Below, in pieces: positions 60,101 through 63,108 of a stretch of 64,000 nt of DNA. A model generated the notes under the pieces. That model had not been told where the DNA came from and did no database searches. It saw nothing but the letters and a program-made list of their open reading frames with translations. Each line of letters opens with the position of its first letter. The stretch's first letter is position 1. The DNA comes from Accumulibacter sp. (GTDB lineage: Bacteria > Pseudomonadota > Gammaproteobacteria > Burkholderiales > Rhodocyclaceae), in assembly GCF_029255285.1 (NCBI RefSeq), contig NZ_JAPUVI010000108.1, forward strand, positions 36,317-100,316, given 5' to 3'. The position numbers and the translations under genes were made by a program.

Positions 60101-60470
60101 GTTCGAGGCGCATCACCGGGTCGGCGTCGCGCAGGTAGCGCGACAGGCGCGTGTGAGCGTCGGTGAAGCGACGCTCGCCAAGCACCTCGAAAACCCGCCA
60201 GATCAGCCGCTGCGGAGCGAAGGGGGACTCCTCATCGACTTCGACCAGTTGGCCGATTTGCCGCCACAGCCACTCGGCGAGGTAGGAGAAGTCGATGTTG
60301 GCGCAGATTCCGTGGCGGTCGGCGCAGGCCAGCTCGATGCGGCGGCGCAGCGCCGTACTCGGAACGATCACCTGCTGCGCGGCGAGCGGCGAGACGCTTT
60401 CTTCCGCCAGATGAGCGAGCAGTTGTTCGAGCAGGACTTCGAAGCGGTTGGACAGGGTCAGCCGAAGCAT
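57123..60470 (-). CDS. recC: Exodeoxyribonuclease V gamma subunit
   Basis: The 1115-aa subunit that senses Chi in E. coli and splits the duplex. It starts MLRLTLSNRFEVLLEQLLAH and contains AQQVIVPSTALRRRIELACA, LPDLKSAAPLIEAVFG and RALPYRVVCLLGMNDGAFPG, all typical of RecC. It is the first gene of recC-recB-recD. The Chi sequence of this organism cannot be inferred here. Confidence 0.94.
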   Translation of the reverse strand: MLRLTLSNRFEVLLEQLLAHLAEESVSPLAAQQVIVPSTALRRRIELACADRHGICANIDFSYLAEWLWRQIGQLVEVDEESPFAPQRLIWRVFEVLGERRFTDAHTRLSRYLRDADPVMRLELAQRCAILIEHYSTYRSRWLAAWSDGRPAGIPGLDAESAADELWQAALWQRITSELGLHRQHPATAFFQRIEQGDRGSPMPAGLPAAASVFCLHTLPPLYLDILRQLSRWMDIRVYALNPCREYWFDIVDRKRLSYLAARHQDAHHEVGNGLLAAWGKQTQTAIEMLLADDTELVEEGSVFLPAGGEHLLARLQNAILDLEELPPGSVELADEDRSIELHVCHSLTRELEVLHDQLLAMFADRDPPAPEQIVVLLPDLKSAAPLIEAVFGTVPASRRIPYTITGLPPARVNPVARTLDALLALCGSRFTASRVFDLLLQPPVAARFGLQADDLERIHGWMGDAGMRWGLDADSRRRLNLPVTERHSFADGLHRLFLAYALGGEPTARNTVVAGRIAAGNPEGGDAVTLGRWWRFLRALEALREDWSQARDANAWQRSLSEALSRFVRADGELIDDLRAMQATIDELHSDMRRGGARSPLPLAVVHSALSARLDDPGRGGVPGGGLTFSSLSSLRALPYRVVCLLGMNDGAFPGADRPAEFDLMARRPQAGDRQRRLDERNLFLDILLAARQRLYLSYSGRSSRDNSVVAPSVLLAELIDYLAIACADDPANATSIDAARRRLTVDHPLQAFSSEYFLVGGDRRRRSFNAEYCAALRQESAGLAATCPEDDDGEDGEALEDGAQAIRDGARLPFFTDPLPAAPAEWRQVRLEELLNFFRQPSRNLLTRRLNIALAAADDELPDDEPFLPDYSGRQALARRLLPVLLAGCSDERALALALAGNEFPSGPFGERLVADEVARLRAFAAELAPQLAATPLPAVHASFDYLLDGEPWRLAGSLGDLRRAGLVRYRYDELQPADYLAGWIAHLFLCAAAPAAADRRTVWYARDANYGLRPCDPDSARAQLGELLRLYRLGLSAPMHFFPKSSWAYATKGASAARQRWSGARDASWGESADPAYRLALRGVDAPLDEDFERCASAVFGPLLDHLEESPR

Positions 60471-60590
60471 GGTGCCGGCACGCGGGTTGGCGAAAACAAG
60501 CGATTATCGCATCGGCCGGCGCCGATTCCGCCATGCCGGGCGACGGCGAAAAGAAGTGGGCCGACGCCGCTGCGCCCACTTCGTCCAATG

Positions 60591-60607
60591 TGTCGAAAAA
60601 TTTTACA
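60591..60607 (+). promoter_or_regulatory. Element shared by both PEP-CTERM genes (copy 2)
   Basis: TGTCGAAAAATTTTACA, 141 bp upstream of the CHRD-domain PEP-CTERM gene. It differs from the copy at 46212-46228 only at position 6. Downstream of both copies, a further GCTTGTTT occurs 93 to 101 bp from the element start, suggesting a common promoter plan. The 277-bp recC/CHRD interval holds no gene. Confidence 0.6.
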
Positions 60608-60747
60608 GTCGGCGCAGGGAAAGGTCGGCCGGAGACGGCAAATTGTTGATCGATATGGTCAAGTTTTTTCAGGCGCAAATCGTGCTTGTTTTTTGGCTGG
60701 GCGACTTTGCGCCAATCCAGCCGTATCCGATTCGAACGGAGAAAACC

Positions 60748-61353
60748 ATGACCAGGAAATCCATGTGCGCTTCCATGGCTGCTGCGGGAGCCGTCGCAAT
60801 GACGGTTCTCGGTGCTGTCGGGCCGGCGTCGGCCGCGCCGATCACCCTGTATGCCACACTTACCGGAGCGGCGGAATCCCCGCCCAACGCGTCGCCGGGG
60901 AGCGGCGAGGCGGTGGTGACTTTCGACGACGAAGCCGATACGCTACGGGTGCGGGTGAGCTTCCGCGGCCTGCTGGCTCCCGTGACGGCGTCGCACATTC
61001 ACTGCTGCACGGCGGTGGCGGGCGAGGGTACGGCAGGGGTGGCGACGCAGACACCGACTTTCACGGGCTTTCCGAGCGGTGTATTGGCGGGCGAGTATGA
61101 TCGCACCTTCGATCTCGGTTCGCTGCTCTCGTATCGGCCGGGTTTCGTGACGGCGAACGGCGGCTCCGCCGCCAGTGCCGAAGCGGCGCTGGGCCTCGGA
61201 TTGGTGAGCGGTGGAGCGTATTTGAACATCCATACCTCGCTCTTCCCGGGCGGCGAGATCCGGGGTTTCCTGGTTCCCGAGCCCGCCTCCTTCGCGCTGT
61301 TCGGCGCCGGGCTCGCCGGGCTCGCCGCGTTGCGCAGGCGCCGCGCCGCTTGA
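60748..61353 (+). CDS. CHRD-domain PEP-CTERM exported protein
   Basis: The 201-aa secreted protein has a signal peptide (AAAGAVAMTVLGAVGPASA) and a CHRD (chordin-like) domain from about residue 30 (LYATLTGAAESPPNASPGSG, ASHIHCC, YLNIHTSLFPGGEIRGFL). A C-terminal PEP-CTERM signal follows (VPEPASFALFGAGLAGLAAL then RRRR). Exosortase targets of this kind are linked to the exopolysaccharide matrix and floc formation in related bacteria. ACGGAG precedes the ATG. Confidence 0.9.
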   Translation: MTRKSMCASMAAAGAVAMTVLGAVGPASAAPITLYATLTGAAESPPNASPGSGEAVVTFDDEADTLRVRVSFRGLLAPVTASHIHCCTAVAGEGTAGVATQTPTFTGFPSGVLAGEYDRTFDLGSLLSYRPGFVTANGGSAASAEAALGLGLVSGGAYLNIHTSLFPGGEIRGFLVPEPASFALFGAGLAGLAALRRRRAA

Positions 61354-61423: not shown

Positions 61424-62230
61424 CTAGCCGTAGCGACCCTCGATGTAGTCCGCGGTTTCCCGATGTGCCGGCGTGACGAACATTTCGTCGGTGCGCGCGT
61501 GTTCGACGACTTTGCCCATCAGCATGAAGACGCATTCCTCGCTGGCCCGCCTCGCCTGGGCCATGTTGTGCGTGACGATGAGGATCGTGTACTGGCCGCG
61601 CAGTTCCCAGAGCAGTTCCTCGACCGCTTCCGTACCCTTGGGGTCGAGCGCCGAACACGGTTCATCCATCAGAAGCATTTTCGGTTTGACCGGCAGCAGG
61701 CGGGCGATGCAGAGCTTTTGCTGTTCTTCCAGAGAGAGTTCGGTCGCCTTGCGCGTCAGCCGATCCTTCACCTGATCCCACAGCAGCACCTGGCGCAGCG
61801 ACTGTTCGACGATCTCGTCGGGAGTGCCCTGGTGTACGTCGCCGCCGCCCTTGGCATGCAAGCGGTGGCTGAAGAGGATGTTGTCGCGGATCGAAATGGG
61901 CAGCGGGTTTGGGCGCTGAAAGACCATGCCGACCTGTTTGCGTACCTGCACCAGTTCGACCTGCGGATCGTAGATGTTCTCGCCCATGACGTGGATGCTG
62001 CCCTCGATGCGGACGTAGCCGAGGCGTTCGTTGATCCGGTTGACGCTGCGCAGGAAGGTGCTCTTGCCGCATCCCGAAGGCCCGATCATCGAAGTGATCA
62101 GGCCTTGCCGGATGCGTAGATCGACGTCGTAGAGCGCCTGAAACGTTCCGTACCACAGGTTCAGTCGCTGGCTGTCGATTGCGTACTCGGGTGTCGCTTG
62201 GAGAAGCGCCGCCGTCTGGTGGGTATTCAT
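61424..62230 (-). CDS. pstB: Phosphate ABC transporter ATP-binding protein, signature-degenerate paralogue
   Basis: A 268-aa PstB-type ATPase. Walker A GPSGCGKS (50-57), Q-loop VFQRPNPLP (Q105), Walker B LLMDEPCSALDP (D189, E190) and H-loop VTHNMAQ (H221) are intact. The ABC signature is LSLEEQQKL (165-173) instead of LSGGQQQ. Together with the adjacent second PstB, which has the reverse pattern of losses, it probably forms a heterodimer on PstCA. Separated by 65 bp from that gene. Confidence 0.9.
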   Translation of the reverse strand: MNTHQTAALLQATPEYAIDSQRLNLWYGTFQALYDVDLRIRQGLITSMIGPSGCGKSTFLRSVNRINERLGYVRIEGSIHVMGENIYDPQVELVQVRKQVGMVFQRPNPLPISIRDNILFSHRLHAKGGGDVHQGTPDEIVEQSLRQVLLWDQVKDRLTRKATELSLEEQQKLCIARLLPVKPKMLLMDEPCSALDPKGTEAVEELLWELRGQYTILIVTHNMAQARRASEECVFMLMGKVVEHARTDEMFVTPAHRETADYIEGRYG

Positions 62231-62295
62231 CGTGGTTCGTGTCCTTGATAGACCATTCTGTGAAACGGCCGGCGGCCGGCCGCGCGGGCGCTTGT

Positions 62296-63108
62296 CTAAC
62301 CGAATCGTCCCTCGACGTAGTCGCGTGTGCGCGGGTCTTTCACCTCGCCGGTGAACAGGTCTTCGGTGATGCCGACTTCGACGCATTCGCCGTTGAGAAA
62401 GAAGGCCGTTCGATCGGCCAGACGGCGCGCTTGCTGCACCAGGTTGGTGACCAGAAGAATGGTCACTTCCTGGCGCAGTTCCTTGAGAACGTCCTCGATG
62501 CGCATCGTGGTGACCGGATCGACGGCGATCGAGAACTCGTCGAGCATCAGGAGATCCGGCTCTTGCGAAAGCGCTCTGGCGATCGTCAGGCGTTGTTGCT
62601 GACCGCCGGACAGCAGGCTGCCGAGGGCGTTCAGGCGATCCTTGACCTCGTCCCAGAGGGCCGCGCGCGTCAGGCAGCGCTGCACGATGACGTCCAGGTC
62701 GGCCTTGTTGTTGATCCCACGCAGGCGAGGCGAGAGGGCCACGTTGTCGTATACCGTCATCGGCAGACCGACCGGCAGCGGAAAGACGACACCAATGCGG
62801 CTGCGCAGGGCATAGACGTTGCTCAGCCGACTCGTATCGCGACCGTTGAAACGGATCTCCCCGTCCACCTTCATCCCCGGCGTGAAGACATTCATCCGGT
62901 TGATGGCCTTGAGCAGCGAGGTCTTGCCGGCGTTGGCCGGGCCGATGATGCCGAAGATCTCATGCTCGCGAACGGCCAGGCTGACTCCTCGCAGCGCCGT
63001 CGTGTTGCCATAGCGGATGCTCAGGTTCTTGATCTCGAGCTTGCTCGGAAAATTGTCGATGGGTGCCACGGTGTCGCTGGCCACCGCCGCTGCGCCGGGA
63101 TTCACCAT
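62296..63108 (-). CDS. Second phosphate ABC transporter ATP-binding protein, Q-loop/H-loop-degenerate paralogue
   Basis: The 270-aa PstB-like ATPase keeps Walker A (GPANAGKT, 56-63) and an intact signature LSGGQQQRL (166-174). The Q-loop glutamine is proline (VVFPLPVGLP, P110), the H-loop histidine is asparagine (VTNLVQQ, N222), and Walker B is followed by Phe (LDEFSIAVDP). It overlaps pstA by 7 bp. These changes would make one of the two composite ATP sites non-canonical when paired with the other PstB. Confidence 0.87.
   Translation of the reverse strand: MVNPGAAAVASDTVAPIDNFPSKLEIKNLSIRYGNTTALRGVSLAVREHEIFGIIGPANAGKTSLLKAINRMNVFTPGMKVDGEIRFNGRDTSRLSNVYALRSRIGVVFPLPVGLPMTVYDNVALSPRLRGINNKADLDVIVQRCLTRAALWDEVKDRLNALGSLLSGGQQQRLTIARALSQEPDLLMLDEFSIAVDPVTTMRIEDVLKELRQEVTILLVTNLVQQARRLADRTAFFLNGECVEVGITEDLFTGEVKDPRTRDYVEGRFG

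Follow-up and report, generated by a model that had tools for sequence, protein, structure and literature searches.

The analysed stretch (hereafter, the window) comprises 64,000 nucleotides of an Accumulibacter contig and carries three consecutive genes of the phosphate-specific transport (Pst) type:

63992-63102, minus strand: pstA permease, first of the three in reading order (TIGR00974, 256.7 bits against a cut-off of 193.45)
63108-62296, minus strand: PstB-2 (P0003, 270 aa), a PstB-type ATPase that keeps LSGGQ, with Pro for the Q-loop Gln and Asn for the H-loop His
62230-61424, minus strand: PstB-1 (P0002, 268 aa), a PstB-type ATPase that keeps Gln and His, with the signature LSLEE

pstA and PstB-2 share 7 bases where they meet, and 65 bases separate PstB-2 from PstB-1. 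Reading of the frames confirmed the coordinates that an earlier sequence-only reading had given for the two PstB ORFs (61424-62230 and 62296-63108) and added the strand, which it had left unstated; both lie on the minus strand, and the plus-strand frames there encode other sequence. The contig ends next to pstA, so pst genes upstream of it are out of view in this assembly. Downstream of the pair, a plus-strand ORF (60448-61353) looks by eye as if it encodes a secreted protein whose tail resembles PEP-CTERM.

The functional motifs of the two ATPases are distributed as follows:

PstB-1 (P0002), Walker A GPSGCGKST: intact
PstB-1 (P0002), Q-loop Gln105 in VFQRPNP: kept
PstB-1, residues 165-169, codons 61738-61724, minus strand: signature LSLEE, replacing LSGGQ
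PstB-1 (P0002), catalytic Glu in MLLMDE: kept
PstB-1 (P0002), H-loop His221 in VTHNM: kept
PstB-2 (P0003), Walker A GPANAGKTS: intact
PstB-2, 62781-62779, minus strand: Pro110 at the Q position in VFPLPVG, Gln lost
PstB-2, residues 166-170, codons 62613-62599, minus strand: signature LSGGQ, kept
PstB-2 (P0003), catalytic Glu in LLMLDE: kept
PstB-2, 62445-62443, minus strand: Asn222 at the H position in VTNLV, His lost

The sequence-only reading had described PstB-1 as intact in Walker A, Q-loop, Walker B and H-loop and deprived of LSGGQ, and PstB-2 as retaining LSGGQ with Gln replaced by Pro in the Q-loop and His by Asn in the H-loop. Both descriptions were borne out by alignment to the solved PstB chain of PDB entry 9k3x, in which Pro110 falls on Gln, Asn222 on His and LSLEE on LSGGQ. 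It had further predicted one composite site without Q, H and LSGGQ; the residue losses stand, but PstB-2 still has its Walker A Lys and its catalytic Glu, and its own site is therefore not wholly stripped. The two proteins are about 36-37% identical, and neither has the full set of Walker A, Q, LSGGQ, Walker B and H motifs that would allow a symmetric homodimer. The PstB model is the best-scoring model for both, and both score below the cut-off of TIGR00972, the NCBIfam PstB equivalog (316.4 bits for PstB-1 and 275.7 for PstB-2 against 343.2).

The conservation of these complementary losses was assessed across 273 loci, collapsing rows that share a PstB-2 end (last 150 residues) into one and requiring at least 230 residues in both genes. 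Eleven pairs of the window's kind (T) and one of a diverged kind (D) were excluded beforehand for a cut or broken gene, and the D pairs were drawn from samples of Planctomycetota and Verrucomicrobiota. Complementary losses characterise every complete, non-redundant pair (99 of 99), 87 of them T and 12 D; the latter number is a lower bound (at least 12), the loci having come from the best 30 matches of the D-type search. Every T-kind PstB-2 has Pro, Asn and LSGGQ at the respective positions (87/87 each). Their PstB-1 partners keep Gln in 87/87 and His in 86, with a single Tyr (L261), and have lost the signature in 87/87, showing LSLEE in 55 cases, LQLEQ in 14, LSLEQ in 12 and six other variants once each. 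The D-kind second subunit has Ala at the Q position, Asn at the H position and an intact LSGGQ (12/12 each), and the first subunit keeps Gln and His and lacks the signature (again 12/12 each), reading LSAEQ (5), LLPDE (2), LPMDQ (2), LSLEQ, LSPEQ or LSGEA. With the exception of the Tyr-for-His replacement in L261, the non-canonical residues all map to one composite site of the presumed mixed dimer in 99/99 pairs. The agreement of all 99 pairs rules out chance or an assembly artefact as the source of the pattern.

None of the 198 proteins in these pairs has lost the Walker A Lys or the catalytic Glu, so that the Glu of PstB-2 is kept rather than replaced in 99/99. Replacement of the catalytic Glu at the degenerate site of asymmetric ABC transporters is common, not universal.

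As a control, the other PstB-like proteins of the same loci were inspected, dropping 11 matches below 190 bits and omitting D-kind rows by design; Gln, [LMI]SGGQ and His are kept in 97 of the 98. The single exception (L082:8483-9280, Poribacteria) has Arg at the Q position, LSIGQ and Asn for His, and is the third PstB-like gene of its locus, lying between a weak pstA match and phoU. Three of the dropped matches exceeded 140 bits, two of them being one odd Acidobacteria gene (LTTSM, Asn for His) found in two loci. This gene (L086:7402-8286, equal to L257:1-843) directly follows PstB-1 as a third PstB-like gene; it also has Thr at the Q position, and its Lys and Glu are kept. Four Paenibacillus proteins that had been typed as PstB-1 (T1) by identity proved by their motifs to be canonical PstBs. 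Among the best 80 matches listed, T loci occur in Accumulibacter, Chromatiaceae, Magnetococcales, Gammaproteobacteria, Nitrospirales, Planctomycetota, Rhodothermales, Rhodothermia, Acidobacteria, Deltaproteobacteria, Verrucomicrobia, Poribacteria and Bacteriovoracaceae. A search of plasmids returned 208 records, every one below 60% identity.

The two types also travel together. Searching 398 genomes of the window's phylum with PstB-2 gave 33 passes, of which 24 are PstB-2 (68-100% identity) and nine proved to be canonical PstBs at 45-47% identity. PstB-1 (at least 67% identity) is present in 23 of these 24 genomes and in no other genome of the sample; the 24th (G228, locus L037) has a PstB-1 fragment at a contig end, bringing joint occurrence to 24/24. 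Among 246 Planctomycetota, PstB-2 was found in 21 genomes and PstB-1 (at least 60%) in the same 21. PstB-1 was scored beside PstB-2 loci, rather than by a separate search, in Acidobacteriota, where 19 of 149 genomes have PstB-2 with PstB-1 adjoining in 19/19 (one a fragment, L262), and in Verrucomicrobiota, where the five PstB-2 loci in 145 genomes are all paired, three as T and two as D. Within the genus, PstB-2 occurs in 19 and PstB-1 in 20 of 28 genomes, the PstB-1 gene of the extra genome (G003) starting 322 bases into its contig with the PstB-2 side cut off. The co-occurrence that the sequence-only reading had suggested examining thus holds, in that both types are found in the same genomes wherever both were searched and are nearly always adjacent; it had named frequent lone subtypes as evidence against its interpretation, and in the samples searched for both types neither was found apart from the other.

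Adjacency is close, with at most 150 bases between the genes in 96 of 100 measured pairs. PstB-2 rows without a neighbour are L218 and L084, both at contig ends, L218 being also the sole D-kind row outside a pair, and one gene of G204 that is present as both L052 and L271. In G204 the two genes sit on separate contigs, and the 2.09 kb that follow PstB-2 contain no PstB-1; this is the one exception to adjacency that a contig end does not explain, and reflects a rearrangement or an assembly error (L271, L272). A further 55 weaker PstB-1-like places were inspected (48-54% identity; 41 from the 398-genome search and 14 from Planctomycetota), and 53 are ordinary PstBs with Gln, SGGQ and His. Of the remaining two, L299 has Gln and LSGGQ and a stop before His, and L301 (G094:C75:68072-68824), 51% identical to PstB-1, has Ala at the Q position, LTDEE and Ser at the H position; its genome also has a PstB-1/PstB-2 pair. 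PstB-1 matches were read to 1e-78 in the 398-genome sample and to 1e-80 in Planctomycetota; a lone copy that has diverged very far could have escaped this reading. G009 has a second, broken PstB-1 copy (C1:4280131-4280923; two pieces, with an internal TAG), with the intact pair about 17 kb away.

These distributions bear on whether each PstB might homodimerise for a separate task, or pair with a canonical PstB encoded elsewhere. The window's genome does encode an additional canonical PstB with its own pstA (G000:C22; TIGR00972, 381.8 bits), a point in favour of such arrangements. Yet 12 of 27 named genomes and, in a separate count within the genus, 4 of the 20 that carry the pair (G001, G014, G018, G022) yielded no PstB besides it, each single absence being weak evidence because most of the genomes are drafts; the types were never found apart in the samples searched for both; and either homodimer would carry two broken sites. 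Both arrangements therefore appear very improbable. One genome of the same genus given as 100% complete (G007) yielded no PstB at E 1e-38.

The genomic context of the pair was compared in 31 loci, some genomes being represented twice. All 31 contain pstC, pstA and PstB-2. In 23, phoU lies before or among the pst genes (in 18 before pstC, and after pstS where this is visible; in five before pstS), and in the other eight (L077-L079, L082, L084, L086, L088 and L089) it is not upstream. Relatives thus show pstS, pstC and pstA as neighbours with phoU nearby, and the window shows pstA only. A Pst-like importer for a substrate other than phosphate would be in keeping with the sub-threshold TIGR00972 scores of both PstBs and with a binding protein that passes the broad PstS-family model TIGR02136 while matching the E. 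coli-type TIGR00975 weakly in L070 (68.8 against 205 bits) and, at E 1e-20, not at all in L147. We regard such a substrate as improbable, since PstA and PstC pass phosphate-specific cut-offs, phoU belongs to the operon at those 23 loci, and some genomes have no other PstB that we could find.

The PhoU proteins of these operons frequently carry a C-terminal tail of about 130 residues (23 of 27 PhoU rows read; examples in T-type operons are L147:6176-7333 and L070:3103-4188). A profile built from 21 tailed PhoUs matches PhoU structures, and its tail matches arsenate reductases (1jl3, E 5e-17); one of two tailed PhoUs tested reaches the Pfam LMWPc model (23.8 bits against a cut-off of 23.2). By eye, the Cys of the phosphate-binding loop is absent from 22 of 23 tails (Asp in 20, Gly in 2), L080 being the only tail that keeps it, together with Arg. 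The tail may be a dead phosphatase serving as a phosphate sensor. Within the genus, tailed PhoU occurs in 18 of 28 genomes, comprising 17 of the 20 pair-bearing genomes and G027, where the contig stops 351 bases past the gene; in the three pair-bearing genomes where it was not seen (G000, G002 and G003) the pair lies at a contig end. A search for tailed PhoU in the whole assembly to which the window belongs found none. The two D operons examined encode a tail-less PhoU, located after the pair.

Both genes are under purifying selection, with a median dN/dS within the genus of 0.073 for PstB-1 and 0.142 for PstB-2 (17 sequences each), and these low values rule out the decay of a duplicate gene. 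The approximately twofold faster evolution of PstB-2 would fit a mainly regulatory, non-catalytic partner whose site responds to ATP/ADP or passes phosphate status on to the unusual PhoU, with little role in the transport stroke; so would the change at its Q position, a motor-channel contact, and the pseudo-phosphatase-like PhoU tail that operons of the window's kind often encode. We nevertheless consider this role for PstB-2 unlikely, because none of the 99 pairs shows a change in its LSGGQ, Walker A Lys or catalytic Glu, and because the D operons examined show the same asymmetry with a tail-less PhoU. An invariant LSGGQ in a subunit whose own site is broken is as expected of a motif that serves the partner's catalytic site.

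A tree with three further ABC ATPases from the genome as its root resolves PstB-1 (T1) and PstB-2 (T2) as one group each (SH-aLRT 95 and 99, respectively). When the D lineage is added and all columns are used, D1 groups with T1 (97) and D2 with T2 (99); after removal of the motif columns D1 still groups with T1 (92), and the union of D2 and T2 is unsupported. One old split with early asymmetry, common to T and D, is thus favoured over two origins, though not proved. Distances among PstB-1 and PstB-2 proteins correlate (Mantel r 0.945 over the 99 pairs; 0 of 999 permutations as high), indicating joint inheritance, which is no proof of contact.

At each ATP site of an ABC transporter, the Walker A/B, Q and H elements of one subunit meet the signature contributed by its partner, the roles of the motifs being described in the accessible text of PMC7756269. 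The comparative evidence lends support to the asymmetric heterodimer first proposed from the window, and we estimate a probability of about 0.83 that PstB-1 and PstB-2 form an obligate heterodimer with one canonical, hydrolysing site and one degenerate ATP site. The heterodimer would power the PstC-PstA channel of a phosphate importer, with both ATP sites situated between the subunits. Site 1, assembled from Walker A/B, Gln and His of PstB-1 and LSGGQ of PstB-2, would be canonical and hydrolyse ATP. At site 2 the broken PstB-1 signature would meet the Walker A and catalytic Glu of PstB-2, whose Gln and His positions are occupied by Pro and Asn; this site would bind ATP with slow or absent hydrolysis. 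By analogy with asymmetric ABC exporters, ATP at site 2 would hold the motors together while site 1 fires, for a stoichiometry of approximately one ATP per cycle. The sequences, their motifs, linkage, co-occurrence, conservation and selection were observed directly; pairing, site chemistry, stoichiometry and phosphate substrate are what we infer from comparison of the proteins and their loci.

That ATP is bound and little hydrolysed at the degenerate site is probable, with less assurance than the pairing itself: site 2 might still hydrolyse, given that Lys and Glu are intact throughout, and in MRP1, according to the available part of PMC7756269, transport stayed like that of the wild type with an Asn in the H-loop at the catalytic site, a tolerance that weakens this portion of the argument. 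A doubtful extension is that this widespread second form of Pst would be an obligate single-fire importer in which the silent site and the dead-phosphatase-fold PhoU act as a built-in energy and phosphate gauge; if true, uptake would cost about one ATP per phosphate, and the phosphate pump of polyphosphate hoarders would have its own control logic.

Pst is among the best-studied bacterial importers. The genome-level comparison supports reading the pair as a whole family, present in Pseudomonadota, Planctomycetota, Acidobacteriota, Verrucomicrobiota and others, in which the ATPase is split into two apparently interdependent halves. The role of a degenerate ATP site thereby becomes testable in an importer with separate small motor proteins, for which a symmetric homologue in the same genus is an available control, and the arrangement bears on phosphate uptake by Accumulibacter, used for phosphorus removal from wastewater.

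The canonical Pst importer (PDB 9k3s, 9k3x and 9k3y) shares the gene set and the ATPase family and is the best solved-structure match for both proteins; each entry holds two identical PstB chains, whereas here two different PstBs, both under the PstB cut-off, each lack motifs that the other keeps. Adjacent pstB1 and pstB2 genes in one pst operon are also known from Enterococcus faecalis (PMC12096839), where the roles are unequal, pstB2 being required and pstB1 accessory. As described in the portion of that article available, both E. faecalis proteins retain LSGGQ, the H-loop and the two Walker motifs and share 60% identity, in contrast to the much lower identity and complementary losses found here. 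Since those intact-motif genes have unequal roles, adjacent pstB genes do not by themselves imply obligate pairing; the same portion states that no earlier publication, for any microbe, had compared what tandem pstB paralogues each contribute. Mixed pairing of two tandem PstBs is an idea already known from Bacillus subtilis, whose PstBA and PstBB were modelled as a mixed pair (PMC11466899); a mixed complex is proposed there as here, and motif loss is not reported for that pair in the accessible text, the comparison being by description only. A literature search, with most subscription journals outside its reach, returned nothing on complementary motif loss in PstB.

Outside the Pst family, the asymmetric ABC exporters TAP1/TAP2, TM287/288 and BmrCD (PMC7756269, from the text accessible) resemble the proposed heterodimer in having one canonical and one degenerate composite site, with the losses gathered on one site; in those exporters the motor is fused to the channel, whereas here a binding-protein-dependent importer has separate motor genes and keeps the catalytic Glu. 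RbsA and NupO, in the accessible account of PMC11466899, are likewise ABC importers with one degenerate ATP site, each a single fused chain whose second Walker A Lys is lost; here, by contrast, there are two chains, Lys and Glu are kept, and it is Gln, His and the partner's signature that have been lost.
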